A stretch of DNA of 53,332 nucleotides from Pseudorhodobacter sp. PARRP1 (GTDB lineage: Bacteria; Pseudomonadota; Alphaproteobacteria; Rhodobacterales; Rhodobacteraceae), in contig NKIU01000008.1 of assembly GCA_002256245.1 (NCBI GenBank), positions 1 to 53,332 on the forward strand. Reading direction: 5' to 3'. The notes beneath the pieces were generated by a model that had not been told where the DNA came from, made no database searches, and worked only from the letters and a program-made list of their open reading frames with translations. The position numbers and the translations under genes are program-made. Below are positions 1 to 13,437 of this stretch, piece after piece (the first letter of the stretch is position 1; each line of letters starts with the position of its first letter).

Positions 1-56
1 TCGGCCTGCCGCAGGATCGCGAGGATCTGCGCCTCAGTGTATCTGCTTGTCTTCAT
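1..56 (-). CDS. IS3-family transposase OrfA, first 18-19 codons only
   Basis: The minus strand reads MKTSRYTEAQILAILRQAE from an ATG at 56, preceded by a good ribosome site (GAGGAG, 63-69). This N-terminus is characteristic of the small OrfA helix-turn-helix protein of IS3-family elements (IS407/IS51-like), which binds the element ends and is joined by frameshifting to OrfB. The rest lies outside the window. It sits next to the end of the putative defence operon, as is common in islands of accessory genes. The family call is firm; the subgroup is less certain. Confidence 0.8.
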   Translation of the reverse strand, partial: MKTSRYTEAQILAILRQA

Positions 57-133
57 TCGAAATCTCCTCGTGCATCTTGCCGAGAAAATTCTACTTATGC
101 AGCCCCTTACTTTTAGGGGGGATTACCCCTGCA
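1..133 (-). mobile_element. End of an IS3-family insertion sequence (cut by window edge)
   Basis: The transposase start lies at position 56 on the minus strand, and about 75 bp of non-coding DNA separates it from a likely element end near 133. Reading the minus strand from 133, the sequence starts TGCAGGGG and contains runs of C and G that could form the terminal inverted repeat. Only one end is inside the window, so neither the inverted repeat nor a target duplication can be confirmed. The exact boundary is an estimate. Confidence 0.5.
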
Positions 134-283
134 CGGAAAAACCATGAAACCAAACCGCACATTATGCGATCGGGGTGAACGGAAAACACCGATCCACCCA
201 TAAAGATCAACGCAATGAACGGCTGTAGTGGCGGAGCGGACGCGACTGCCGTCGAACCTTCTCTGGCGGATTCGGCCCATCGG

Positions 284-2314
284 TCAATGTGGCCCAATAG
301 GCATAGATCCGATCGGGTCAATTCCCTCTACACGAGCAAGCCACTGGTGAAACAGGCGCCACGGCACTGAGCGCCTCTTCTCTTCACCAGACATGGTTTC
401 TGAAAGCTCCCCGACAAATCGGCTTGGACTCATGAATTTGGCCGCAGTACTTAGGGGTAGGTCGTTAGCGGCTTCGGTTCGGGATGCGAGTTCCCGGATT
501 GCGTCAACCGAGATATCGAAAGCGTTAATCTGTCCGAACACGGCCTCAGGCGACGCCGAGAAGCGATAGCCAGGGGCAGCTCTTGTAAGCAATGCTGCAA
601 GCAGCGTGTTTAGCGTCAACCCGCCCCATGTAACTAGTTCGCTCCCATCCAGTTGCCAAATCGTCGGCTCGAAACCTTTTTGCCTAGCAAGCGCCCAAAT
701 GATACTGCGGCTCATTGGAAGTGCGGGACCTGTAGCCTTGATCTTGGCCAGCGGCTGAGACCGCTGCGCTTCATCGCCAAGATAGGCCCCTCCCTCAGAA
801 CCCGCCATCAAACGCCGCATTGACCCGGCATGAAACACGGCACCGCCGATGCTGCCTTCGTCAGCGTCACGGATAGCAGTGTCGCCAGTCCTAATATCGA
901 CAACAGCATTGCCTGGACGTCCCGAGATGACCGTATGAATTCTGCCAGTGTCGCCTTCATCAATCAGGCGATCACACGGCACTATTGCTCCCCGGATGTT
1001 CATCAGGGATCCGGTTGACATCATGTCGTTCACGATTGGGGTGTGAGATGCCGAACCGGCCTCTTTTGATAGTGCCGCTATCGTCAAGGGACGATCTTGC
1101 CTTGTTGCTCTCCACGCAAGGCTAAGAATTTGCTGAAAGCGCACGGATGGTCGATCGTATTCGTGAACGTCATCTTGCTCTCCTCGTCGGCCGCAATCTA
1201 GCAACGCATGGAACAATATCTCGCTATCATCCGAATCGCGGAAACCAACCACCCTACAAGCACCACTGCGTCGGTTTCCGCGGCCAATCCGCTGGAGGAA
1301 GCCACTGACACTTCTTGGCATATCAAGCAATACAACTGTATCTACATCGCCGATATCTATGCCGATTTCGAGCGTTGAAGTCGCAACGCAGATACCATAA
1401 CGATCCGAGCGCATCTGCTCCTCAACACGTTCCCGCTCCGTCGCGGCTAACGCTCCGAAATGCAGATGCACCGGCCACCTGGTGCCAACAAGTTCGAGAT
1501 GCAAATGTGCCGCTATAGCATGGGCACCATTTCGTGAGTTTGCAAAAGCCAAAACCTTCTCCGCGCCCGATCCTGCGATCCAGCGCGCGAGACTTCGTGC
1601 GCGCGCCTGATCCGGATCGGCCGAACTCTCACTACCCAAGTCAATTAGTTGTAAGTTGATTTCGCGAGGGGAGCCGTGCGAGAGAACCGTTGCGTCGTCG
1701 CCGAGCCAAAGCCTTCCTACGCTGGCCATGTCGTCCAATGTTGCTGTCATCCCGACAACTTGAAATACGTCGCGCACTGATCGGGGTGCAACAGATGCGC
1801 ACTTGATGCGTTCAATAACATGGCGCAACTGTTGACCGCGAGCTTGGCCATGAAGGAGATGTATTTCGTCGACAATCACGGATCTAACTGAGGCAAGCAT
1901 CTCGGGGCGTCGCAGTTGCAGAGAATCGAGAGCCTCCGGAGTCACGATCACGCAGAAAACACCTCTCGATGTCGAAAACTCGTGACGATCTCCGGTATAC
2001 CGCGCGATAATTCCAGAATTCTTGATTCCGAGGTAAGTTACCAGTCTCTCATGGATGTCGTTTACGAGCGCCTTCGTGGGAGCAACATAGATAGTTGAAA
2101 GTTCGCTCCGCCTGAATGAAATGTGGCGCTGATAAATGGGGGCAACAGCGGCTTCAGTTTTCCCTGATGCAGTGGGCGCCGCAAATAACACGTTCTTTCC
2201 TCGCACTATCTCAGGCATCACTAATGCTTGGCCAGGATAGGGCCGACGTGCGTTGAAAAATATGGGAAATGCATCTGGCATCATCTGTGCCAATTCAGCG
2301 CGGGTACTAGTCAT
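284..2314 (-). CDS. Lhr/BrxHI-like superfamily 2 DEIH-box helicase
   Basis: A 676-aa ATP-dependent helicase, last gene of a five-gene operon. Visible motifs are motif I APTASGKT (residues 46-53), motif II DEIH (149-152), motif III GMTAT (about 188-192), motif V LEIGIDIGDVD (about 315-325) and motif VI QRIGRGNRR (341-349). DEIH plus this spacing is the pattern of Lhr-type helicases, and the length fits BrxHI, the helicase that accompanies the BrxD ATPase in type 2 BREX. No nuclease motif is seen. The ATG at 2314 overlaps the end of the upstream ATPase gene by 8 bases, implying translational coupling; a longer reading from 2359 would run deep into that gene and is less likely. Family knowledge suggests DNA unwinding or translocation in phage defence; the actual function here is inferred. 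Confidence 0.85.
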   Translation of the reverse strand: MTSTRAELAQMMPDAFPIFFNARRPYPGQALVMPEIVRGKNVLFAAPTASGKTEAAVAPIYQRHISFRRSELSTIYVAPTKALVNDIHERLVTYLGIKNSGIIARYTGDRHEFSTSRGVFCVIVTPEALDSLQLRRPEMLASVRSVIVDEIHLLHGQARGQQLRHVIERIKCASVAPRSVRDVFQVVGMTATLDDMASVGRLWLGDDATVLSHGSPREINLQLIDLGSESSADPDQARARSLARWIAGSGAEKVLAFANSRNGAHAIAAHLHLELVGTRWPVHLHFGALAATERERVEEQMRSDRYGICVATSTLEIGIDIGDVDTVVLLDMPRSVSGFLQRIGRGNRRSGACRVVGFRDSDDSEILFHALLDCGRRGEQDDVHEYDRPSVRFQQILSLAWRATRQDRPLTIAALSKEAGSASHTPIVNDMMSTGSLMNIRGAIVPCDRLIDEGDTGRIHTVISGRPGNAVVDIRTGDTAIRDADEGSIGGAVFHAGSMRRLMAGSEGGAYLGDEAQRSQPLAKIKATGPALPMSRSIIWALARQKGFEPTIWQLDGSELVTWGGLTLNTLLAALLTRAAPGYRFSASPEAVFGQINAFDISVDAIRELASRTEAANDLPLSTAAKFMSPSRFVGELSETMSGEEKRRSVPWRLFHQWLARVEGIDPIGSMPIGPH

Positions 2315-3767
2315 CCCAGGGAAGTACCTCTCCAGACATTTGTCGCGCCGCGTCTTCAATAATTGAAATCAGCTCATTTGCACCAACTGGAATAGTTTGA
2401 CTCATGAGCACGGCGGCAGGAAGCCCAGCCATTTTTGTCCAATTTCGCAGAAGCTTCTCGGAGTCGGGTGTCTTCTGAAAATGGTCTTTGAGCGTCGAAG
2501 CAATCTGCGTTCTCAATTTCGGATCCGCCAGAGCGACAACCTTTGGTCCGAGACGATTCGCGCTGTCAGCGAGAAAGGACTCAGCCCAAGTCGCATAACC
2601 GTCGGCACTTGGAGGTTCGAGGTGCACCACATCCTGCTCGGAGTGGATTAGAACACTCATCTCCCCAGCTTTCCTTTTGAGATCCTGCGTGTCTTCTCCC
2701 TCCGTGAGGCCAACAAACAGGCCAAAGTGAGGGCCTTCGCGCCAGAATGGGGGGACACCAGTCATATCATAGTCGCAACTTAGATCCTGCAAATCCTTTC
2801 TCGGGAGATGCGAACATCGCGACAGAACATCGAAGAAGGTATTTGCTCTTAGGTATCGACTAACTGAATAGGTTCTAACGTGCTCGGCTTCATCGATGAT
2901 GATAGCAAGGCCCTTGTAGCCAAGCGCCTTCAATACCTCGTTGAGCACGACCAGATGAAATGCGTAGACTAGACCAGTGTCTTTTGTCTGCGGCATTGCA
3001 GGGATCGATCTTCTGATTCCACTCCAAGCGATGCGGTTTATCGCATCTTTTTGCTTGATCTGACCGCCAAGCCAATGCACAGCCGAGACATAGTCTTGAT
3101 CATCTCGTCGATGCGATAGACGAAGCAAGGCCTCGATTGCGCTGCTAAACCATCGAGACGAACTAAAATATCGCAGAGACCTGACTTTGATCCAGTTGTC
3201 CCTTATTTCTTTTATAAGGTCGAAGAAATCCTCGCTTCGCCTTCCATCTTGGCGTGCGGGAAACTCGAGCCCCGCAATCAATCCTTGATACACAGACGAC
3301 GCCTTCGCTGGATCGGCAGCTTTGGGGTCCAGTTCGATAGACGCGGTTACCCACCCATCCCGAATCGCAATTGCCTTTACAAGCTGCAGGTGGTGGGATT
3401 TGCCTGAGCCGTAGTATCCCATGAAAACACGACACGCACCCGTTCGCGGCAAGTCGCCCAACAGTGCGCGAACCGATCTCGATATCTCGTCGCCACCGAT
3501 TGTCAACTTGATCAGCTGATCGGGATCCGAAGGAACCACACCGAGGTTAACCGCCTCAAATGACTGTCGGAATGCAACATCCGTAGTATTGCGAGGCGTT
3601 ACGGTTGCGACCGCCGCTCTATTCCCGTTTGTACGAACCAGAAGCTCTTTGACGTCCACATCCAACTGTTCGCCAAAGAACTCAACCGTAGCGATGTTGT
3701 CCAGTACCGCGATAACCTCACCGATCCCGAACTCTTCATGTTCTACTTGATTGCCAGTATCGATCAC
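2307..3767 (-). CDS. BrxD-like (DUF2791-type) P-loop ATPase with a small N-terminal beta-barrel-like domain
   Basis: A 486-aa protein. Residues 8-45 (QVEHEEFGIGEVIAV and following) look like the short SH3/tudor-type module seen in CarD and at UvrD C-termini. The rest resembles BREX BrxD-type ATPases: Walker A GYYGSGKS (117-124), Walker B IIIDEAEH (289-296), then a conserved region GLFVGLTEG near 350. Translation appears to start at a GTG whose GTGA overlaps the stop of the preceding ATPase gene, and its own end overlaps the helicase start by 8 bases. It differs clearly from the neighbouring 434-aa ATPase, so the pair is not a recent duplication and may form a mixed complex. No nuclease or methylase domain is visible. 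The family assignment comes from pattern recognition, not from a search. Confidence 0.75.
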   Translation of the reverse strand: MIDTGNQVEHEEFGIGEVIAVLDNIATVEFFGEQLDVDVKELLVRTNGNRAAVATVTPRNTTDVAFRQSFEAVNLGVVPSDPDQLIKLTIGGDEISRSVRALLGDLPRTGACRVFMGYYGSGKSHHLQLVKAIAIRDGWVTASIELDPKAADPAKASSVYQGLIAGLEFPARQDGRRSEDFFDLIKEIRDNWIKVRSLRYFSSSRWFSSAIEALLRLSHRRDDQDYVSAVHWLGGQIKQKDAINRIAWSGIRRSIPAMPQTKDTGLVYAFHLVVLNEVLKALGYKGLAIIIDEAEHVRTYSVSRYLRANTFFDVLSRCSHLPRKDLQDLSCDYDMTGVPPFWREGPHFGLFVGLTEGEDTQDLKRKAGEMSVLIHSEQDVVHLEPPSADGYATWAESFLADSANRLGPKVVALADPKLRTQIASTLKDHFQKTPDSEKLLRNWTKMAGLPAAVLMSQTIPVGANELISIIEDAARQMSGEVLPWDD

Positions 3768-5068
3768 GCGTCGTCACCCTCCATTGGAGGTTCGTTGTTA
3801 TTGACGAAATCGCTTGCCTGCTCAGCGCTTATGGCGTGCTGAACTTTGCGCTGGCCGTCAAGAAAGCGGCAGTACTGGTACACAAAGAAACGTGGTTTTG
3901 GGGTTTCAAACAGAAGGTCCTTCTGGGCCGCAATAATAGCCTTCATGTTCACACTTTGAACTGCGTGATCCCAGTCGATCCCGTGGGCCTTGCTGAATAC
4001 ACCAAGAAGCCGTTCACCAATCCGTTGAATGACTTCTTCTGAGTTAGCCTCCTCGATATTGATAAGTGGTACTTGTGGGCTGCCTTTGGAGAAAGCCTTT
4101 GTGCCGATACGATCTTGAAGCGCCCGGTAGGTGCTGATCACCTCCGAGCGGAAGTCGGGTGTAGCTGCATAGAGGAACATGACCCCACCAAATTCGCCTT
4201 CTGCGTTCTGATTGATCATTGTGAGCAAGTTCTCAATAGCTTGCTTCTGCTTGGCTGAGCCACGACGGAACGATGAAGTGCGTGTGCCTTCATCGAAAGC
4301 AATCAGGAATCCGCGATACGCGATGCGCGTCCGAAGAAACGCGATTGCTGTCTTCAGCCTTCGGAAGGCATTGTCATCGCGCGCCGGTTCGAAAAGCCCT
4401 AGAGCTTTCAGCGCATTAGACCTGACGCTGTCTCCCCGAATCCAAGAAATTAGTTCGCTGTCGGAGACCGCTTCCTTTGCACCGCAGTTTGTCTTCAGCA
4501 GGCGTTGGCTCAAGGCCGTAAGCGCTGCGGCCATCTGGGGGTCCGGAGCACCTTTCCAGATTCCGCCGATCTGATCCTCGATCTGGCGCTGGACGAGGTC
4601 TGGGACATCGTTCCCCGGCTCTGCACCCAGTTGGCCGATGCGCTTTCTTATCCAACTGTCGATGAGGACTTCGATGCCCTTTTCGTCAGACCCCTCCTCA
4701 TCCACTGGTGGCTGGAACGACTCCATGATCGCACGAAAGATGGCAGCTGGAGAATTGAATGGACACTCAGCACCAACCGTGACGAGGGCAGTTACAACTT
4801 GTTGCTCACTCGCACGACGGGCGAGACTATTGATAAACTGCGTCTTTCCGCTTCCGTAGTCTCCTTCGAGATACTTGAAACACCCTATTCCGTCGGCGAG
4901 CTCTCCACGAAAGTAATTTTGATCTAGAGCATCGAGGATGTGGTCCGTGCCCACATTAATAAAGTGAGAGTACTTTCCGGGAGCTATCGGAGAGTTCAGC
5001 AACGTGCTTACGAGCCGTCTGGCGTCGATCGGTGAAATTAGTACATCCAACTTGGTTCTCCCTATCAA
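3764..5068 (-). CDS. BrxD-like (DUF2791-type) P-loop ATPase
   Basis: A 434-aa ATPase with Walker A GDYGSGKT (69-76), Walker B LIAFDEG (255-261) and a sensor-like segment VMFLYAATPDFRSEV (about 290-305). The start region (ISPIDARRLVSTLLNSP) matches the general form of BrxD proteins of BREX systems. The first possible start is a TTG at 5068 that overlaps the previous stop as TTGA. A second TTG at 5050 follows a strong GGGAGA ribosome site by about 6 bases and may be the true start, giving 428 aa. The gene ends in a GTGA overlap with the next ATPase gene. In BREX, BrxD is a DNA-associated ATPase needed for phage exclusion; here no PglZ, BrxC or methylase accompanies it. Confidence 0.75.
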   Translation of the reverse strand: MIGRTKLDVLISPIDARRLVSTLLNSPIAPGKYSHFINVGTDHILDALDQNYFRGELADGIGCFKYLEGDYGSGKTQFINSLARRASEQQVVTALVTVGAECPFNSPAAIFRAIMESFQPPVDEEGSDEKGIEVLIDSWIRKRIGQLGAEPGNDVPDLVQRQIEDQIGGIWKGAPDPQMAAALTALSQRLLKTNCGAKEAVSDSELISWIRGDSVRSNALKALGLFEPARDDNAFRRLKTAIAFLRTRIAYRGFLIAFDEGTRTSSFRRGSAKQKQAIENLLTMINQNAEGEFGGVMFLYAATPDFRSEVISTYRALQDRIGTKAFSKGSPQVPLINIEEANSEEVIQRIGERLLGVFSKAHGIDWDHAVQSVNMKAIIAAQKDLLFETPKPRFFVYQYCRFLDGQRKVQHAISAEQASDFVNNNEPPMEGDDA

Positions 5069-5955
5069 GCCGACTGGCGGCGAATGTAAATCATCGGCCG
5101 TACAACCGTTCCCTCAGCGTTGCCAGGAACGAAAAAAGCTCGAGACCTTGCGCCGTGAGCTTGGTTGAGGGTAGCTGGAACAAGCTCAAAACTCTCGCGT
5201 GACTCGGCTGTGTCCCGATTTCGTCGCCAGTTAATAAGATTTATGATGAACACGGCCTCAGGAACATCTTCGAAGTTCCGCCTTGCAGGGCTGCTCCAAA
5301 AGCGCTCATCTTGCACAGCAATTTTGAAAACACGTGCGACATCAGCGATGAGCACGTTTTCACCATCGCCAAAATGTTTTGCGATGCCCCAGGCAAGAGA
5401 GAGTCGATCTAGGAAGCGGTCAACAGGCATCGTCCACTTGTCAACGATTTTCTCCGATGCGGCATATGCACTTACTACATATTCAATGTCTGCTGGTATC
5501 TTAGCGACGACCGGATAGTGGGGCGTCATGGACCACGACCAACTTTGTCCGTTCTTTTCAGGGACAAGGATTAGGCGGCCAGCGAAGTATTGATTGTCCT
5601 TGTTTCCGGTTGCGACCCCTTCGAGACGATGCAGGACCTGCATTGCGAAGCGCCTGCGGTTGTCAGGATGCCGCATCTGCTCTGCATGCTCATCGACGGC
5701 ACGACGAGCAACAGCAATCTCAACTTGAACCTCGCGATCACGCAATGCATCTTCTGGCAGCGTCAGTGCCAGAAGTTCTTGCTGTCTTTCAATTGTCGCG
5801 GGAGGCATATCTAGCCCATCGGCTCGAGTTTGACCTTGTCCAAGTATCCGGGGCAAGCGAGCAGCCAGAATCCCTTTCGCGTTGGAAAGGAGCCCCGTCC
5901 TCTCGACGAAGCGCTCGAGCGCGGGAAACAGTTGGGGGCTATGAATCTGGGGCAT
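5065..5955 (-). CDS. Unknown protein of the five-gene helicase/ATPase operon
   Basis: A 296-aa soluble protein that I do not recognise. It has no membrane segment, no Cys/His metal cluster and no obvious nuclease or P-loop motif. The first half is rich in charged helices (LTLPEDALRDREVQVEIAV), which may be a scaffold or partner-binding part. The C-terminal half has a mixed pattern ending MIYIRRQSA. The ATG at 5955 follows an AGAGA ribosome site and lies 20 bases after the HelD-like gene; its stop overlaps the next start. This tight position between the helicase and the ATPases suggests a structural subunit of the same complex. Confidence 0.7.
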   Translation of the reverse strand: MPQIHSPQLFPALERFVERTGLLSNAKGILAARLPRILGQGQTRADGLDMPPATIERQQELLALTLPEDALRDREVQVEIAVARRAVDEHAEQMRHPDNRRRFAMQVLHRLEGVATGNKDNQYFAGRLILVPEKNGQSWSWSMTPHYPVVAKIPADIEYVVSAYAASEKIVDKWTMPVDRFLDRLSLAWGIAKHFGDGENVLIADVARVFKIAVQDERFWSSPARRNFEDVPEAVFIINLINWRRNRDTAESRESFELVPATLNQAHGARSRAFFVPGNAEGTVVRPMIYIRRQSA

Positions 5956-5974
5956 GGCGTCTCTTTTCTTGATT

Positions 5975-8266
5975 TCACGACTGCATAACGTCGAAAAGGG
6001 ACTTGTCCACTTTGCGAAGCAATGGAGGGTATTCGTTACAAATGAGCGCTAAGCGGCGCGCGGGACGGGAAATCGCGACGTAAGCCCGGTTCAACGTGAA
6101 GTTCAAAGCTGCGTTTTCAACGTCCTCAAGCCCGATGACAATACAAGCGTCAAATTCGAGTCCTTTGATCCGCTCGACCGAGGTTGTGAGAAGGCCAACG
6201 CCGGTTGCAGCCCATATTTGAACCAATGGCACACCCAAATGTTGCAACTCATGACGCAAGGTCAGCAGGGCTTGCTCATCTTCGTTGATTTGAAGAAGCG
6301 CCAAGCTAGTGACGACATCGGAACGTTGAAGCACGGAGACAATCTGCTTTATCCGTCGCGCATGATCCTGCGGCGGCGCAATTATCAATTGCGGCTTCTT
6401 GTCTTCCAGCGAAGTATTCACATCGAAGGTTGGGCGCTCGCGGAATGCAGCCTCGTAGAAGCCTTGGAGAAACCGCCCAATCTGCTTGCTCTGCCGCATG
6501 TTGCGCGCAAATGGATAGATCTGCTCAGCACCCTTGCCGCGCAATGACCTGCCAACAGCTAGTGCTTCCGAAGTGCGCATGCCGTACACTGGGCTCACGA
6601 TTTGTCTGAAGTCAGCTGAGACTGTCAGCGCTCCATCTGGGTCGACGAGTGACCCTAGCAATGAAGCTTCCGCGACACAAAGATCCTGAGCCTCATCAAT
6701 AGCAATGTGCGTCCACCGTTCACCACCGTTCATGGCGGGAACAATAGACGACGGCATCTCTCGAAACCGATCTTGGGCATCCACTGAGGTCGGTAAGGCA
6801 AACCGCAGGAGCCAAGCCAGCCAAGGACGGTCTTCAGGACCAAAGACCCTGTCGTTCCATTCGGACCGAGCCAGTTCGAGAATTGCGGATTCGTTTACCC
6901 GGCCGCCAGTCCCTTTGCGCATTCGATGAGCAGCTTCAGATTCGCGGCCACCAAAATAGGAAGAAACAGCGCCGAGTGGATCATAAACCCAGTAAAGCCA
7001 GTGTTGGAATGCTTCGTCAAAGCGGTTTCTCTTAAGTGCCTGCATGCTTTCGCGCGCGTCAGCGTAGGCGCGTGATACTTTCTTGAACACTGCATCCATT
7101 GAAAGCCCCGATCTCAAGGGGTCTTGACCGAAGGCTTGGCCAGTTGATGCGCGTAGAAGTTGCGATGCAAGTATTCTGAGTTCCTCGGTCTTCACTCCAT
7201 CCAGATCCACCCATGTGGCAGTGTTCGATAACGCAAGACGCTCTGCTATCTGCCGCTCATAGACCTCCCAAATGCGGCCGAGGTCATGGTGATCCGAAAG
7301 CCCCAGCACCGCAGTTCTTGCAGCGATTTCAAGCTGCGTGTGCTTTTTCTGGCGCGGCCTAGCGGCGTGTTTGTACAACCAAACCTGTTCGAGATATGAA
7401 CCCACGAACGGACTGACCGCTTCAACCACAAACGCTGGGATTTCCAGTTGCCTTACCAGAAGATCCCTAGCTTGCTCCGCAAGGTTTTCGTTTGCAAGGA
7501 ATACCCTCGTTAGTTCCGGTGTGTAAGGCACTAGCCGACCTTCAGCCTCGCGTTGGCCCTGTTGATCGAAGAGAAAGCGGATGCGTTGAAAAGCAACGGT
7601 TGTCTTTCCCGAACCTGGCGCCCCGGTAACAATCATCAGTCCCGACATGCGCGACACGAATGCAAGAACTTGGTCTTGTGTCATGCCTAGCTTCACGGCC
7701 TTAAGGCCAGTCTTCTGAGGGGCAATCGCGCGAGGCCGGACTGCGCCGCCTGGCTGATAGACTCCAGATATTTGCGGAACTGCTATATCGAAACGGGCCT
7801 TTGCGAGTGGCTCGACGCTGCGTAGGCGAAAACCGCTGGCACGCACGTCTCTGAAATCGCCGATGTTAGTCGCGAGTGCCAACTGAATTCCAGGATGCGT
7901 CCAAGCGAGAACAGCAATCTTTTCGTCCGCATCTTGGAAGACCTCATTCACTGAGGACTGTGCGTTAGAGTACCAAAGTTGTTCTTTCTCAAGTAGGTCC
8001 CCTTTGTCACTTACAACTTCGGTGTAAACTTCAACCATCACTTGGAATGGATCCGCCAATATGGACTCCAGAGCTTCTGCACGCTGTTTTGCGTACTCCA
8101 CTCGGCTTCGGTCATGTGACGTAGGCCCATGAAGGGCACTTCCAGTCAGTGCGGGCGACCTGAATTGCGAAAGCTCGTGGTGAGCGATCCTAACCGCTGC
8201 TTCAGCGTTACGCTGATCGCGGGCCAACCGCTTCTCCAAGTCGATGTCTGCTGTGCGAGGTTTCAT
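5975..8266 (-). CDS. HelD/UvrD-like superfamily 1 helicase or translocase
   Basis: A 763-aa protein, first gene of the operon. Residues 1-200 are a helical N-terminal part (DIDLEKRLARDQRNAEAAVR) similar to HelD/helicase IV-type proteins. Walker A is GAPGSGKT (about 215-222), Walker B IAIDEAQD (about 521-528), with a C-terminal UvrD_C_2-like block containing ERIKGLEFDACIVIGLED and the motif VI region NRAYVAISRPARRL. This is the arrangement of SF1 ATPases that remove RNA polymerase or translocate on DNA. The ATG at 8266 is preferred over a TTG at 8278 because GGGA lies 7 bases upstream. No nuclease residues are seen. In this operon it is the second motor besides the Lhr-like helicase. Confidence 0.8.
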   Translation of the reverse strand: MKPRTADIDLEKRLARDQRNAEAAVRIAHHELSQFRSPALTGSALHGPTSHDRSRVEYAKQRAEALESILADPFQVMVEVYTEVVSDKGDLLEKEQLWYSNAQSSVNEVFQDADEKIAVLAWTHPGIQLALATNIGDFRDVRASGFRLRSVEPLAKARFDIAVPQISGVYQPGGAVRPRAIAPQKTGLKAVKLGMTQDQVLAFVSRMSGLMIVTGAPGSGKTTVAFQRIRFLFDQQGQREAEGRLVPYTPELTRVFLANENLAEQARDLLVRQLEIPAFVVEAVSPFVGSYLEQVWLYKHAARPRQKKHTQLEIAARTAVLGLSDHHDLGRIWEVYERQIAERLALSNTATWVDLDGVKTEELRILASQLLRASTGQAFGQDPLRSGLSMDAVFKKVSRAYADARESMQALKRNRFDEAFQHWLYWVYDPLGAVSSYFGGRESEAAHRMRKGTGGRVNESAILELARSEWNDRVFGPEDRPWLAWLLRFALPTSVDAQDRFREMPSSIVPAMNGGERWTHIAIDEAQDLCVAEASLLGSLVDPDGALTVSADFRQIVSPVYGMRTSEALAVGRSLRGKGAEQIYPFARNMRQSKQIGRFLQGFYEAAFRERPTFDVNTSLEDKKPQLIIAPPQDHARRIKQIVSVLQRSDVVTSLALLQINEDEQALLTLRHELQHLGVPLVQIWAATGVGLLTTSVERIKGLEFDACIVIGLEDVENAALNFTLNRAYVAISRPARRLALICNEYPPLLRKVDKSLFDVMQS

Positions 8267-8682
8267 ATCTGATCCCAATTCAATGCTGGTGACCCTACCT
8301 TAAGCTAGCGTCACTTGACAAGCTGCCCTGATAATCGTTATTCAGAGTTCTCGCGCGCGCGCGCTACGGTGATCTTTCACCTCAAGTTTGGACCGCGCGC
8401 TAAGCGAATGTGCTCTGTCACCCAGCGACCCTGAAACAATAGTCCGGCTGCGCGTAGATCACCGAGCCAAGTTGCACGAGAAAGCCGCCGCCGGTGAGCC
8501 TTGGTCATGTGGAGCCGGGCGACCGAAACTTGGTCGCGGCGGGCACAAATCAAGGGATCTTTGCAGCACAATTAGCCCGTTGGCTCGAACAGGCCAAAAT
8601 CCTGAGCCTTATGCGGGAGCAGCACGAACCAGCAACTGTCGGTAACCCTTCTTGCTTATCATAGAGCCCGAAAGCCGGATAT
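8267..8682. other. Non-coding stretch upstream of the defence-type operon
   Basis: About 415 bases with no ORF I can support. It contains an alternating CGCGCGCGCG tract near 8352-8363 and should hold the promoter of the five-gene operon, since no other gene feeds directly into 8266. I see no clear operator repeat. Small ORFs on both strands here have no recognisable protein character. Confidence 0.4.
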
Positions 8683-9096
8683 TCATGGCCGCCGCCACTT
8701 CTCCCAAGCTTCTGAACCCGCCCGACGAGCCTCGGCAACCTCCGCAAACTGCCCGGCCAAAGTGTGATCCCCGATTCGAACCGAATAGACTGCTTTGCGA
8801 GTTGCCGTATGAGTGGCGCGTTTGAAGATCGCCGCCACGGGTATCGTGGACTGTGCCTTATCGTAGGCGAAAAATTCCGCAACATCTGGATCATGTGGCT
8901 CCCACCAGAGTGGGCCGACTCTTGTCCGGTTTGAAACCTTGCGTCGTGCCAGTTCTTCTGTGAGAGCGTCTCGCAAGTGCGCAGCTTGTAGGTGCTTGGG
9001 ATCTTTGCTTAGAACCCTATTGGCGTTCACCAGCAGATCCTTGAGTTTCTTCGTTTCGGTATTTGGCAGATCACTGATAGTCTTTTCGATGTTCAT
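8683..9096 (-). CDS. Unknown 137-aa protein next to methyltransferase/helicase remnants
   Basis: The protein begins MNIEKTISDLPNTETKKL and has a helical N-terminal half (residues 1-50) followed by a compact C-terminal part with VGPLWWEPHDPDVAEFFAYD and EVAEARRAGSEAWEKW. I do not recognise the family. The ATG at 9096 lies 4 bases after the TGA of the truncated helicase gene, so it was once the next gene in that operon; an ATG at 9120 would overlap the helicase and is less likely. Its intact frame contrasts with the two truncated genes upstream. It may be an accessory protein of the original restriction or defence locus. Confidence 0.6.
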   Translation of the reverse strand: MNIEKTISDLPNTETKKLKDLLVNANRVLSKDPKHLQAAHLRDALTEELARRKVSNRTRVGPLWWEPHDPDVAEFFAYDKAQSTIPVAAIFKRATHTATRKAVYSVRIGDHTLAGQFAEVAEARRAGSEAWEKWRRP

Positions 9097-9100
9097 CTGG

Positions 9101-9781
9101 TCACCAATCTGACAGGCCACAAAGAGTATTCACCAGCCGCATTTGTGCGATAGTCTCGCATTTCGCCTCACGCAGGCGCGGTGCGCCGAACACCAGCGAA
9201 AGACCCTTGGCGCGCGAAACTGCCACGTTGATCCGGTTGAGCGAAAACAGAAACTCCATCCCTCGCGACGTTTCCTCGGCCGAGGACGCGGTCATCGAGA
9301 CGAGGCAGACCGGCGCCTCTTGCCCCTGGAACTTGTCTACTGTGCCGACGCGAATGCCATCGGGCAGCGCATCACGGAGGGCATTCACTTGAGCATTGTA
9401 TGGGGCGACGACGATGATGTCCGTCTGGCGCATCGGACGGCTTGAGCCATCCTTCTCGGTCCAGGTGCCCCGCAGCAGTTCAGACGTCGCGGCCTGAATG
9501 GCGGCCACCTCTTCGGAAGCAATCTGAGCATTGCCTTCGTGCGAAACTGGCACCCAGAATGCTCCGGCCTCGGGAAATGGTGCGCCAGTGACGCTTTGGC
9601 GAACGGTGTCGGGGTGGCTGGTGAGCCGCCCTTCATAGACTTGATCTGAAATGAAGCGGCAGACATCTGGGTGCATGCGCCGTGATATCGGCAGGAAGAT
9701 TCCGCGATCAGGTGGCACGGTCGCATGTTCACCCAGCATCCAGTCAAGGCAGGAAAGGTTCGCAGGCTCGGGATGCGCGCC
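9101..9781 (-). pseudogene. C-terminal remnant of a DNA2/NAM7-like SF1 helicase
   Basis: About 227 codons remain, containing the C-terminal helicase half: SRRMHPDVCRFISDQVYEGR, IIVVAPYNAQVNALRD (motif IV/V region), VGTVDKFQGQEAPVCLVSMT and LFSLNRINVAVSRAKG (motif VI). This is the pattern of TM0106-type RecB-nuclease/DNA2-like helicases. The frame is open upstream of the first ATG (9739) to a TAA at 9782-9784, reading GAHPEPANLSCLDW, still good helicase sequence, so the gene was cut there. The Walker A half and any nuclease domain are missing. The fragment cannot be an active helicase. Confidence 0.8.
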
Positions 9782-10271
9782 TTACAAATAAAGAGTTCCG
9801 CACATCTGCCGCGCCGCCAGCATTCCTATGCGACGAAAACCCTTGGCATGGTGCGCATCCGATAAGGACAAGCGGAGCATCGGGCGCCCTCCGCGACGCG
9901 TTCACCATCCGCACCAAGGCATCTTGGTTGTGTGAATGTGCATGAAGGTCGTCATTCAAGGGCTTAAGGCCCAAGTTCATCTCATATGTCTTCATCGCAA
10001 CTGCGTCGATATCAATTGCCATCGCAAGTCGATACGCAGGCAGAAGGGTGTTCGCGGCAAGAAAACCTGCAGACATTCCACCGCAGCCCGAAAACATATC
10101 GACAACGTCCACGGGACCAAGGGGAGACGAGCGAACTTCTTCCCATTTCGTATCCAGGGACAGTGCAAGCTCAATGCCGGCTTCGCGCACCGTGTTACGG
10201 CTGCGAGCAAAGCGCCCCAGTTCCGCCAGCATCGCCACGGGCTCTTTCGTCCCGCTTCTGCGATCTATCAT
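9744..10271 (-). pseudogene. N-terminal remnant of a C5 cytosine DNA methyltransferase
   Basis: The protein shows motif I DMFSGCGGMSAGF, the motif II/III region IDIDAVAMKTYEMN, and the catalytic motif IV GCAPCQGFSSHRN. It then breaks after RNSLFV, where a complete enzyme would continue to the ENV motif, the target recognition domain and motifs IX-X. The reading frame runs into helicase DNA and stops at 9744. The ATG at 10271 overlaps the stop of a 40-codon upstream frame; a GTG at 10328 is an alternative start. The catalytic Cys is present, but without the later motifs methylation is not expected. Confidence 0.85.
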
Positions 10272-10390
10272 CGCCTCAGTTCCTTCAGACTCGCGCACAA
10301 GATGCCCCACACTTCCAAACCGACCCACAGGCGCGGCAAAGTCGGCACACCTCGTGCTTCCATTGACCTGTCCAATATATGTTGTACCAT

Positions 10391-11116
10391 ATCATCCCTT
10401 CGTCCCCCGTCCATAGTAGTTCGCACCTGCCAACGCATACGCTGGTGATGTTCTATCGCTTCCTGCCTCGTTAGTGGCGAAGACGGTCAAGGCATAGGTC
10501 TCGCTCGAAGTGCAAGGTCGTTCACGTTAGTAGTCGGCTGAGTCTGGGTCGGTCGTCCCAAGTTGGAGGCGTTCGAGCCTCCGGCAAGCAAGGTTCCGGC
10601 CAATTCACCGAAAATGTGCCGCTCTCACTACACCCTCAGGAACAGGGCGGAACGCGCCGAACCCGTCGGAATTCGCGCTCAGGCTAATCGTAATTGTGTG
10701 GGTTGTTTCCGACCCTCTGAGGACCTTTTGGATCGCTAGTCTCGTGCTCAACTGCCAAGACTTGGGCAGGACGCAGCCAGGCAAGTTGACTGTATCACAC
10801 AGAGGCCAAGGGCGATTGCATGTGCAACCGGTGCGTCCCTAGATCGAATTTTTAGTTACGCATCAGTACCATCTGATGTGTGTCCCAGACGGTGAACTCA
10901 ACGATCAAAAAATACAGAATACGATTTAATATCAGTATCTTGAACGAATTTCACCAAAACGTTTCAGTCATTAGGTCCAGAGAATATCGGCCGTGAGAGA
11001 CGCTTTCCGGCCATTCTGGAGGCCGGGCCGGTGCTCAGCCCCTCCCGCATAACCCTTGAAAACAACGGAAAAATCCGGCCACGGTCGGATCGGGAGAAAA
11101 CTTTCGCGGGGGCAAG
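10391..11116. other. Gene-free spacer between island remnants and tRNA-Ser
   Basis: No supportable gene in about 720 bases. A perfect 6-bp stem hairpin (GGAGGC-loop-GCCTCC) lies at 10565-10582, and the stretch 10840-10965 is notably AT-rich. This is the zone where an integrated element would have its attachment site next to the tRNA 3' end. I saw no second copy of the tRNA tail on the left and no integrase. Confidence 0.4.
11069..11090 (-). terminator. Probable terminator of tRNA-Ser
   Basis: On the minus strand, downstream of the tRNA, ATCCG and CGGAT can pair around an 8-base loop and are followed by a T run. It sits about 27 bases after the CCA end. Confidence 0.55.
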
Positions 11117-11206
11117 TGGCGGAAGCGGTGGGATTCGAACCCACGGTAGGGTTCCCCCTACGCTCAGTTAGCAACCGAGTGCTTTCGGCCTCTCAGCCAC
11201 GCTTCC
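11117..11206 (-). tRNA. tRNA-Ser (anticodon GCU)
   Basis: A 90-nt gene including an encoded CCA (11117-11119). The acceptor stem GGAAGCG pairs with CGCTTCC, with G as discriminator. The anticodon loop is TTGCTAA, giving GCU. A long variable arm (GTAGGG...CCCTAC) marks it as a class II tRNA, and the T-arm GGGTTCGAATCCC is standard. The defence-type island begins on its 3' side, a classic integration point for integrase-borne islands. Confidence 0.97.
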
Positions 11207-11263
11207 GACGGGGTGTATTTAGCCGGGCAGGGGGGCGGGGGCAAGAGGGAAAGCGGGGGGTAG

Positions 11264-13432
11264 TTGCAACATCCGCAACGCAACCCTAACCTGTCGCCGA
11301 TTGTAAAAGGTGCGCGTAATGGCTATTCGAGAACCCAGCTTGGCAGTGTGGCAGAACTTGCCCGCCGAATGAAGCTCTCGCGCAACCCAAACGGTCTTGC
11401 CAAGATCACCTTTCTAATAGGTGCTGGCTGTTCGGTATCGGCCGGCATTCCCACCGTACCCACCATCGCCAAGGCCGAGGTTTGCAAGCTTTACGCCAAA
11501 CTCTTGGGTGAATCCACCGATGACCACATCAAAGCCCTGATCGCAGTGGGCAAGCAGAAATTTCTCGCGGGCCATCTCAGCATAGCACAGAATACGCCCG
11601 ATCAACTCGATTGGGGCCAGATTTACGACACCCTTTTTGCCGAGGTTCACACCTCGCCGCCCGAGGTCAGCCGCCTGTTCAAAGAGACGATCAAAGCGGC
11701 CGATGCCAAGATCAACTGGGCGCATCTGGCCTTAGGCGAACTGGCACGCGAAAACTGGATATCCACCACGATTACCACCAATTTCGATCTTCTGGCGCTG
11801 GAAGGTTATGCGCGCGCAGGCGTGATCCCGGTTGTGTCTGACGGTATCGAATCGCTGGATCGGATGGACCCAAATCCGGTTCATCCACAACTTTTGCAGA
11901 TCAACGGCTCGATCCACAGCTATCGCTTGCGCAATGGCACCGTAGACCTGGATAGGGTCAGTGCCAGCAGTGAGGCAATCACCTGCTTTCGCAATCTGTT
12001 TCAAGCCAGCGATCTGATGGTGATCGTGGGATATGATGGGCGCGAGCCGCAGATCATGACCCTGCTCACCGATGCGGCCCGCACCTATCAGGACAAACAT
12101 ATCTTCTGGTGCCTCTACAGCAACAACCCTGCGGACCTCAGCGATAATGCCACAGAGTTTCTGTCCCACAGCCGCAACGCCCGCCTGATTTTGGGGCAGG
12201 ATGCTGATGTGTTCTTCCACAGCCTTTGTAACGAACTTGATGTGGGCGCACCCGTCGCCCTGCGCGATCCACTGGCGTTCTGGCAGGCACGATTGGGCGG
12301 TATCTATGCCGCAGACCGCCCCGAGCACGCGGCAATTCAGGCCGAACTGGCGGCTGTGCGTGCGCGGGTCACTCAGTTGCAAAATGGCACACCGGCACCC
12401 TCGACAAAACCTGTGAAGCCCCGCCACAAACCCGGCGGGGCAAAGGGCATCCCTACAGTCATCGCACAACAGATTTTGACTGATCTGGCTGATCAATTTG
12501 GCGACGGAACCGAGGCCCAGTTCACCGCGCTGATGCAGATCCAAGATGAATTTTACGATCTTGGCTATGATCAAGGCAACAGTCACGATCTGGAGGTCAG
12601 CCTAGCCTTGGCAGAAGAGGCGCATGCTTTGGCGCAGACAGAGGATCAGCACGGTCTGGCCCTGCATCGTAAAGGGCTGGCGTTGAGAATCCTTGGCGAA
12701 AGGCAGCGCGATAGCTCAAGGCTGACCGCAGCCGTTGATGCTTACACCAAAGCGCTGCAGTATCGAGGCCGTACCCGGGTGCCGCTGGACTGGGCTGCGA
12801 GTCAAAATAGCCTTGGAGTCGCTTTAACGCAACTCTCAGAGGTCGAATCTGATCCAATCCGAATGCAGACCGCCTTAGATGTCTTGCGTCAATCATTGGA
12901 AGAACGCAGCCGCAACCGCGTACCACTGGATTGGGCGGGAACGCAAAACGCTATTGGCAATGTCCTCAACGCGCTTGGGCATCTTAACGATGATCCTGCC
13001 CTGTTTCACGCCGCGATTGACGCCTATTCTGAAGCGCAGAAAGAATACACCCGCGACCGCGCACCACTTAAATGGGCAATGACCCAGAACAACATAGGCG
13101 GTGTCCTCGACACGCTTGGCCGACGCGACGGTGACCTCGCACGATTGCAAGCCGCAATCGAGGCATTATCCGAAGCATTAAAGGAATTCACCCGCGACCG
13201 AGTGCCGCTTGATTGGGCGATTAGCTCTGGCAACCAAGGCATGACGATATGCAACTTGGCTGATCTGACAGATGACCTTGCTCTTGCCAGAACGGCGCTC
13301 AACCAACTGATCGCGGCAGAGGCTCAGACCCGTGTAGGTGGGCATATTTCCCATGCAGACTTCTGCGCCGCCCAAATCACCCGGGCCAATGCACTGATCG
13401 AACGGCTTTCCAAAGATCCCGAAGTGCAGTGA
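11264..13432 (+). CDS. SIR2-domain protein with C-terminal TPR-like repeats; probable NAD-targeting defence protein
   Basis: A protein of up to 722 aa. Residues 47-330 form a SIR2-like domain with the NAD-binding loop FLIGAGCSVSAGIPT (50-64), TTITTNFD (168-175) and a second Rossmann segment DLMVIVGYDGREP near 265. Where SIR2 proteins usually carry the catalytic His (HGS), this one has INGSIHS (213-219), that is Asn with a His four residues later. From about residue 420 there are helical repeats of roughly 50 aa with the recurring core PLDWAxTQN, about four units, as in tetratricopeptide sensor arrays. SIR2 fused to a repeat sensor is a common layout for abortive-infection NADases (ThsA, DSR families). 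The start is uncertain: ATG 11264, GTG 11348 or ATG 11369. It appears to be a stand-alone gene. Confidence 0.8.
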   Translation: MQHPQRNPNLSPIVKGARNGYSRTQLGSVAELARRMKLSRNPNGLAKITFLIGAGCSVSAGIPTVPTIAKAEVCKLYAKLLGESTDDHIKALIAVGKQKFLAGHLSIAQNTPDQLDWGQIYDTLFAEVHTSPPEVSRLFKETIKAADAKINWAHLALGELARENWISTTITTNFDLLALEGYARAGVIPVVSDGIESLDRMDPNPVHPQLLQINGSIHSYRLRNGTVDLDRVSASSEAITCFRNLFQASDLMVIVGYDGREPQIMTLLTDAARTYQDKHIFWCLYSNNPADLSDNATEFLSHSRNARLILGQDADVFFHSLCNELDVGAPVALRDPLAFWQARLGGIYAADRPEHAAIQAELAAVRARVTQLQNGTPAPSTKPVKPRHKPGGAKGIPTVIAQQILTDLADQFGDGTEAQFTALMQIQDEFYDLGYDQGNSHDLEVSLALAEEAHALAQTEDQHGLALHRKGLALRILGERQRDSSRLTAAVDAYTKALQYRGRTRVPLDWAASQNSLGVALTQLSEVESDPIRMQTALDVLRQSLEERSRNRVPLDWAGTQNAIGNVLNALGHLNDDPALFHAAIDAYSEAQKEYTRDRAPLKWAMTQNNIGGVLDTLGRRDGDLARLQAAIEALSEALKEFTRDRVPLDWAISSGNQGMTICNLADLTDDLALARTALNQLIAAEAQTRVGGHISHADFCAAQITRANALIERLSKDPEVQ

Positions 13433-13437
13433 TCTGT

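Follow-up and report, generated by a model that had tools for sequence, protein, structure and literature searches.

A recurrent five-gene operon with two BrxC/BrxD-family ATPases and two unrelated motors in Pseudorhodobacter sp. PARRP1, a candidate defence module

Here we describe a five-gene operon of Pseudorhodobacter sp. PARRP1 (Rhodobacterales: Rhodobacteraceae), located at positions 284–8278 of a 53,332-nucleotide stretch of DNA (assembly GCA_002256245.1, contig NKIU01000008.1, positions 1 to 53,332; hereafter the window). The operon combines two ATPases of the BrxC/BrxD family with two helicase-type motors of superfamilies 1 and 2 (SF1 and SF2) and a protein, UNK, that has no recognisable domain. 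According to the listing of open reading frames (ORFs), its genes are co-directional, and it comprises the following features, with ORF lengths in amino acids (aa):

5975–8278, minus strand: gene 1, HelD-type SF1 motor; ORF of 767 aa, or 763 aa if begun at ATG 8266, the better-supported start
5065–5955, minus strand: gene 2, UNK, no recognisable domain; ORF of 296 aa
3764–5068, minus strand: gene 3, ATPA, BrxC/BrxD-family (PF10923) ATPase with the motif GDYGSGKT; ORF of 434 aa
2307–3767, minus strand: gene 4, ATPB, divergent PF10923 ATPase with the motif GYYGSGKS; ORF of 486 aa
3633–3767, minus strand: probable PcrA/UvrD-type Tudor domain, residues 1–45 of ATPB (sub-threshold profile matches)
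284–2314, minus strand: gene 5, HelB, Ski2/Lhr-like SF2 helicase; 676 aa, with the ORF open to 2359 (691 aa)

Gene layout and recurrence of the operon

The operon was first noticed in a first-pass annotation made from the sequence letters and an ORF list, which had described five minus-strand genes with the motifs GDYGSGKT, GYYGSGKS and DEIH; motifs and gene order agree with the ORF list, and the start proposed for gene 1 (ATG 8266) is favoured by a near-invariant methionine in that alignment column. The genes were also said to be joined by overlaps or a 20-base gap. Their spacing is indeed tight, but the gap between gene 1 and UNK measures 19 bp, and the 4-bp overlap of UNK and ATPA exists only with a TTG start at 5068. 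The conserved start of ATPA is probably TTG 5050, which leaves a gap of 14 bp and is consistent with the gap of 11–17 bp in 11 of 11 relatives from the genome_contigs set (84,980 species). ATPA and ATPB overlap by 4 bp in the window and in the same 11 relatives (11/11), and ATPB and HelB overlap by 8 bp, counted from 2314, the position that corresponds to the HelB start of most relatives. Direct or inverted repeats of at least 18 bases were not found in positions 1–11400 of the window. The window starts at base 1 of the contig, so that the region downstream of the operon, beyond gene 5, is unreadable.

Relatives of the operon were collected from genome_contigs using residues 255–380 of ATPB as bait, a design that is blind to UNK or helicases occurring without ATPB; it yielded 93 pattern matches, from which 11 loci were confirmed. 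Separate genome surveys used UNK and ATPB, not gene 1 or HelB, as baits. The confirmed loci belong to Albimonas, Amaricoccus, Mesorhizobium, two Rhodospirillales, Bradyrhizobium, Falsiroseomonas, Novosphingobium, and metagenome-assembled genomes (MAGs) of Methylobacteriaceae, Bryobacterales and Gemmatimonadota; by taxonomy, nine of the 11 contigs are alphaproteobacterial, one is from Acidobacteriota (locus L025) and one from Gemmatimonadota (L026). All five genes were matched in the same order (tblastn) in these contigs and in genome G093 (L004), giving 13 loci including the window. An IMG/VR locus (L002) equals the 38,001-base Albimonas contig (L017) in length and match scores; the two were treated as one contig and counted once. 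The first-pass annotation had proposed such a neighbourhood survey and had named homologues lying apart as evidence against its reading; the homologues were found together, in the same order and in unrelated genomes.

All five genes are open and full length in nine of the 13 loci (window, L017–L022, L024, L025). HelB is partial in three, being cut short in L004 and L026, where the remaining four genes are open, and meeting the contig end in L027, and gene 1 of L023 is frameshifted near its end or affected by an assembly error there. The broken HelB frame of G093 continues into unrelated sequence (L004, 10995–11603), which we take, by eye and provisionally, to resemble the end of an ATP-dependent DNA ligase. 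Identity to the window proteins is 74–85% for ATPA, 65–81% for UNK and 59–72% for ATPB (12 relatives each), 61–74% for gene 1 (11 relatives aligned) and 60–73% for HelB (9 relatives aligned). Across the nine loci common to all five alignments, the five proteins show concordant pairwise divergences (Spearman rho 0.77–0.95), with at most 4 of 2000 permutations reaching values as high. We regard it as almost certain that the five genes form one genetic module.

The module is rare. In counts that include the genome of strain PARRP1 itself, UNK was present in 2 of 101 relatives and 2 of 385 genomes of the class; ATPB was present in the same two class genomes (2/385) and in 1 of 292 genomes of the order. 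The UNK profile matched 2 of 299 genomes of the phylum, one of them spuriously, and this match (genome G243, E 0.0027) was rejected as lying inside a purH-like reading frame, named by eye. Neither 72,556 plasmid records nor 50,697 phage records contained a match to UNK, and IMG/VR scans with UNK and with three-row alignments of UNK, ATPA and gene 1 matched only the Albimonas contig. Gene 1 gave weak matches in two plasmid records, around neither of which a BrxD-type ATPase is annotated.

The copies from Acidobacteriota (L025) and Gemmatimonadota (L026) group with that of an alphaproteobacterial MAG (L023) in the trees of ATPA (support 100/99) and ATPB (94/99), which indicates that the five-gene set is mobile and has moved between distantly related bacteria. 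The G + C content of the core is 0.535 in the window versus 0.643 for positions 13433–53332, and among the 11 genome_contigs loci it is at least 0.03 below that of the surroundings in nine and equal to it in two (L021, L024).

Two motors, two ATPases and an orphan subunit

Gene 1 is predicted to have a HelD-type SF1 motor core. The motifs GAPGSGKTT and DEAQD are identical in all 12 aligned sequences, that of the window among them, and residues 186–756 align with HelD-type proteins (hhalign probability 99.1, E 1.3e-18), the four comparators consisting of one above the HelD cut-off (432.1 bits), one at 200.1 bits and two unscored. The top NCBIfam model is HelD, at 39.3 bits (41.3 and 43.4 bits in two relatives) and hence far below its cut-off of 419; HelD models score above those of UvrD, PcrA and Rep. 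The two PDB sequence matches at E 0.001 or better are both HelD (6yxu, 6wvk), and a DNA helicase IV-like protein, as a single sequence a weaker control, aligned over a short stretch only (probability 3.7). A HelD family search of the own genome returned nothing at 1e-5 despite the 39.3-bit single-protein score, a miss that we read as weak similarity combined with the limited sensitivity of this first-look search. The earlier label 'HelD/UvrD-like' is thus right in naming a UvrD-like motor and is narrowed to the HelD type by hhalign and the model ranking. Gene 1 resembles HelD and HelR, RNA polymerase recycling motors, over its motor, but differs from them in an N-terminal region that cannot be aligned; the HelD likeness is hence no ground for assuming RNA polymerase binding. 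A reading of this region as the polymerase-binding arm of HelD found no profile match. Gabija was rejected as an assignment: gene 1 scores weakly against GajB (36.2 bits), and no GajA is among the PADLOC matches listed for the five proteins.

ATPA and ATPB match PF10923 (BrxC_BrxD) at 136.3 and 70.7 bits, respectively (cut-off 22.2), and share only a distant likeness with each other (hhalign probability 57). Their Walker motifs are conserved, with one of the 13 ATPA rows reading GGYGSGKT. Weak matches to DUF6079 were also seen for 6 of the 13 ATPB members, the strongest at E 0.002.

The first approximately 45 residues of ATPB probably constitute a Tudor domain of the PcrA/UvrD type, since the matches, weak but consistent, are missing from the controls. 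With a limit of E 1, PF21196 is recognised, weakly, in eight of the 13 members, the best value being E 0.029, and the CarD/TRCF RID domain, likewise weakly, in two (best E 0.062). A PDB search with the same limit gave six matches (best E 0.0032), of which five have names of UvrD/PcrA-type DNA helicases; the matches include the PcrA domain 5dma (E 0.086) and one protein named only ATP-dependent DNA helicase. PF21196 was found in 0 of 12 SngB and BrxD control proteins, and a control search with the ATPA N terminus gave no Tudor match. By our numbering, His10 of ATPB (invariant, 13/13) would align with PcrA His681, and Phe13 (12/13; Tyr in L027) with Trp684; mutation of either PcrA residue lowered RNA polymerase binding according to the excerpted text of PMC5397179. 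ATPB counterparts of Lys712 and Leu714, which are likewise required in PcrA, were not identified. The domain is N-terminal on an AAA+ ATPase in ATPB, whereas in PcrA and UvrD it is C-terminal on an SF1 helicase.

HelB consists of DEAD and Helicase_C domains (Pfam) and carries the motifs TASGKT, DEIH, TAT and QRIGRG, which are shared by all 10 aligned sequences, that of the window among them. Its best PADLOC model is BrxHI (213.6 bits), followed by SngC (176.7 bits), and a profile search of the PDB found it to be Lhr/Ski2/Brr2-like; what had been called a DEIH helicase is that, and can be placed further as Ski2/Lhr-like.

Searches of Pfam, NCBIfam, PADLOC, PHROGs and PDB sequences turned up nothing convincingly related to UNK (best PDB match E 0.18). 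A fold search from a poor model found nothing at E 0.001 or better, and the ORC subunits heading its list were disregarded. GMC_oxred_C_1st came up repeatedly as a weak Pfam match, in 6 of the 13 members (lowest E 0.0089; window 13.4 bits, cut-off 27), and is disbelieved, and the possibility of a hidden TerB protein was rejected after comparison with a seven-row SngA alignment (hhalign probability 0.1).

Relation to BREX and Shango

The closest known arrangements are those of type 2 BREX and Shango. In type 2 BREX (for example at L029), as in the operon, a DEAD/DEAH helicase gene comes immediately after a PF10923 ATPase gene, and the helicase-loading logic is probably the same. For this BrxD–BrxHI dyad, the excerpted text of PMC12839542 proposes that BrxD may load or activate BrxHI, and classes the BrxD-adjacent helicase as Ski2-like with an Lhr-type C terminus. 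Shango, which consists of the TerB protein SngA, the ATPase SngB and the helicase SngC and for which an excerpt of PMC10250203 reports anti-phage activity, likewise has an ATPase gene followed by a DEAD/DEAH helicase gene, with a further protein encoded upstream. The operon differs from type 2 BREX in that its five genes include no PglZ, BrxC, PglX or PglW and encode two ATPases outside the BrxD group, a probable Tudor domain, a HelD-type motor and UNK. It differs from Shango in having no TerB protein, in that UNK has no profile similarity to SngA, in its separate ATPase and helicase groups and in the added HelD-type motor. The first-pass statement that PglZ, PglX/BrxX, BrxC and TerB are missing from the set is borne out for the five genes (Pfam, and the PADLOC and NCBIfam matches listed); nor are the large BrxC/PglY, PglX or PglW among them, PglX and PglW not having been searched genome-wide.

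The comparators in the trees, nine SngB, three BrxD, nine SngC and two BrxHI proteins, come from plasmids with annotation. Each was named after the genes beside it, except at L037, where no TerB gene is listed and the label follows similarity. The ATPase tree contains four separate groups, ATPA (100/99), ATPB (100/100), SngB (99/100) and BrxD (93/92; three rows). In the helicase tree, HelB (100/100) stands apart from SngC (100/99) and from two BrxHI rows, whose grouping is weak (73/18). Some comparator rows have long branches or odd composition (BRXD_L030 and BRXH_L029 are long), and the roots serve for drawing only.

PglZ (PF08665) occurs in 4 of the 13 carrier genomes and is missing from the other nine, among them that of strain PARRP1; it shares a contig with the operon only in genome G720, about 15 kb away on the BREX-gene side of the locus. 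TerB_N occurs in two of the 13, each time near another PF10923 match and on a contig other than the operon's, and these pairs read as separate Shango systems. The own genome has no PF10923 match besides ATPA and ATPB. UNK matches none of the PADLOC-DB 2023 models and the other four proteins match them only as distant relatives, and no description of the five-gene set was found in the open-licence PMC literature, judged by titles and abstract openings. By these sequence comparisons the engine, a PF10923 ATPase plus a Ski2/Lhr helicase, is of a known kind, and the set is placed outside BREX and Shango.

An operon of Deinococcus psychrotolerans was considered as a distant form and rejected, as its ATPase and helicase group with BrxD and BrxHI, on long branches. 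On the plasmid of this species (L038, 1024–8958 and 9858–15346), genes for an LRV-repeat protein, an unknown protein, a BrxD-like ATPase, an Lhr-like helicase and an HNH protein stand in a row that is partly tandem-repeated and adjoins McrBC-like genes. A Photobacterium plasmid (L011, 6471–14237) has a restriction endonuclease, dcm and vsr close to a possible operon that encodes a DEAD helicase, a DUF1998 protein, a UvrD-like ATPase and an unknown protein.

Neighbouring genes and possible function

On the readable side of the operon, the window contains the following:

9101–9739 and 9744–10328, minus strand: AAA_12 helicase and m5C methyltransferase fragments (Pfam/PADLOC)
11264–13432, plus strand: SIR2_2 protein of 722 aa, with a weak TPR match in its C-terminal region

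The SIR2_2 protein looks like a separate defence NADase; its gene adjoins a tRNA-Ser gene (11117–11206). Proteins flanking the other loci were scanned with PADLOC (10 proteins from 5 of the 13 loci) and Pfam (10 proteins from 7 loci), with one to three proteins scanned at L019, L021, L022 and L027 and none at L004, L023 and L026. L024 is flanked by BrxA, BrxB and BrxC and, on the opposite side, by an RNase_H_2/AAA_12 helicase that is MkoA-like by its C terminus (PADLOC). The AAA_12 fragment of the window is 43% identical to the C terminus of this protein, and an AAA_12 helicase may for this reason be a recurrent companion of the operon. A DpdF-like helicase (PADLOC, 625 bits) flanks L020, a phage integrase (Pfam) L025, and a DNA helicase IV-like protein, whose GajB scores were taken as generic, L019. 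One of two proteins scanned at L027 matched Band_7 (Pfam), and three tested at L021 and L022 had no PADLOC match. In Albimonas (L017) the unit follows phage tail and lysis-type genes, and in Amaricoccus (L018) a lysis-type gene. Upstream of the Bradyrhizobium operon lies a gene (L021, 571–2967) whose 798-aa product contains an AAA domain resembling that of DNA polymerase III delta (Pfam).

The architecture of the operon, its mobility and patchy distribution, and its neighbours in 6 of 13 loci (BREX, DpdF-like, SIR2, prophage, integrase) argue that it probably serves defence against mobile elements, most likely lytic phage. More specifically, we cautiously favour a mobile, self-contained five-gene defence module built around an ATPase-plus-helicase engine. 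In such a module, the two BrxD-type (ORC/Cdc6-like) AAA+ ATPases would assemble, with UNK as a scaffold or recognition subunit, and the pair would load the Ski2/Lhr-type HelB onto invading nucleic acid, a step suggested by the same proposal for BrxD and BrxHI in the excerpted PMC12839542. On the same DNA, the HelD-type motor might clear or remodel protein, RNA polymerase being the likeliest target, and motor action, not a dedicated nuclease, would block phage replication or expression. None of the five proteins has a recognised nuclease domain (Pfam; among the PADLOC and NCBIfam matches listed), in agreement with the first-pass annotation. From its proposal of a stand-alone complex, the recurring unit, the distinction from a trimmed BREX or Shango and the lack of a recognised nuclease are retained, and the HelD-type motor, the Ski2/Lhr helicase and the probable Tudor domain are the refinements.

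Several observations weigh against this reading. With no nuclease, methyltransferase or self/non-self mark recognised in the set, the sparing of host DNA is left unexplained. Among the 13 loci, defence neighbours came to light at three (window, L020, L024) and mobile-element neighbours at another three (L017, L018, L025), and these counts are a list, not an enrichment against random loci. The gene damage in L004, L026 and L023 means either that these loci are decaying or that the parts are not all always needed. At the level of single proteins, the gene 1 N terminus gave no alignment with HelD-type N termini (hhalign probability 1.2), the window ATPB scores 12.2 bits against PF21196, below the Pfam cut-off of 23.9, and the AlphaFold models are poor, with a mean predicted local distance difference test score of 56.9 for UNK and 45.9 for gene 1.

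A narrower, tentative version would make the transcription complex the target. The Tudor domain of ATPB would dock RNA polymerase, the HelD-type motor would strip polymerase from phage DNA, and the ATPases and UNK would load HelB on the template or R-loop, turning expression off without DNA cutting. This is suggested by the presence of two modules, the HelD-type motor and the Tudor domain, from families with polymerase-binding members; of these two supports, the gene 1 N terminus failed the HelD comparison and the Tudor domain lies below its family cut-off, and we consider the proposal rather unlikely.

HelD-like motors, PcrA/UvrD Tudor domains and Lhr/Ski2 helicases are families used in DNA repair and transcription housekeeping. 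The operon could accordingly be an accessory module for repair or transcription–replication conflicts that clears stalled RNA polymerase or R-loops and is carried on mobile elements for fitness, not for defence. Gene 1, the ATPB Tudor domain and HelB would all fit this role, and the few flank proteins scanned at L021 and L022 match no known defence family. However, the presence of the set is very patchy at the levels of class and order, copies from different phyla group together, and the neighbours include BREX, SIR2, DpdF-like and prophage genes. BrxD-family ATPases, moreover, adjoin PglZ or TerB in 12 of the 14 plasmid loci fetched (not in L034, and with none listed in L037). A repair role therefore appears to us improbable, to about the same degree as the transcription target.

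Slightly less probable still is an anti-plasmid or inter-phage exclusion system, by which prophages or islands would block competing elements through DNA translocation and which would not be directed specifically at lytic phage. Its best support is the position of the unit behind a phage lysis-type gene in both L017 and L018, which belong to different genera and whose five proteins are 95–99% identical; a prophage link of this kind is, however, known in only 2 of 13 loci, and no plasmid-specific feature was seen, UNK being unmatched in the plasmid records. A type 2 BREX or Shango locus that has lost PglZ/BrxC/PglX or TerB, the alternative that the first-pass annotation itself had named, would account for the matches of both ATPases to PF10923, BrxD and SngB profiles, for those of HelB to BrxHI and SngC and for the common ATPase–helicase order, but is highly improbable given the distinct tree groups, the PglZ and TerB_N surveys with their separate Shango pairs on different contigs, and the recurrence of the same five genes in 13 loci.

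This study adds the probable Tudor domain on ATPB and the HelD-like nature of the SF1 motor to the description of a gene set that is present in at least three phyla. If the favoured five-gene module is indeed defensive, it would represent a separate branch of BrxD/Shango-style immunity that combines two ATPases with two unrelated motors and an orphan subunit and has no obvious nuclease. Two modules of RNA-polymerase-partnering kinds raise the question whether the putative complex targets transcription, and the set would inform the role of BrxD-family ATPases and whether BREX-like immunity can run on motors alone.

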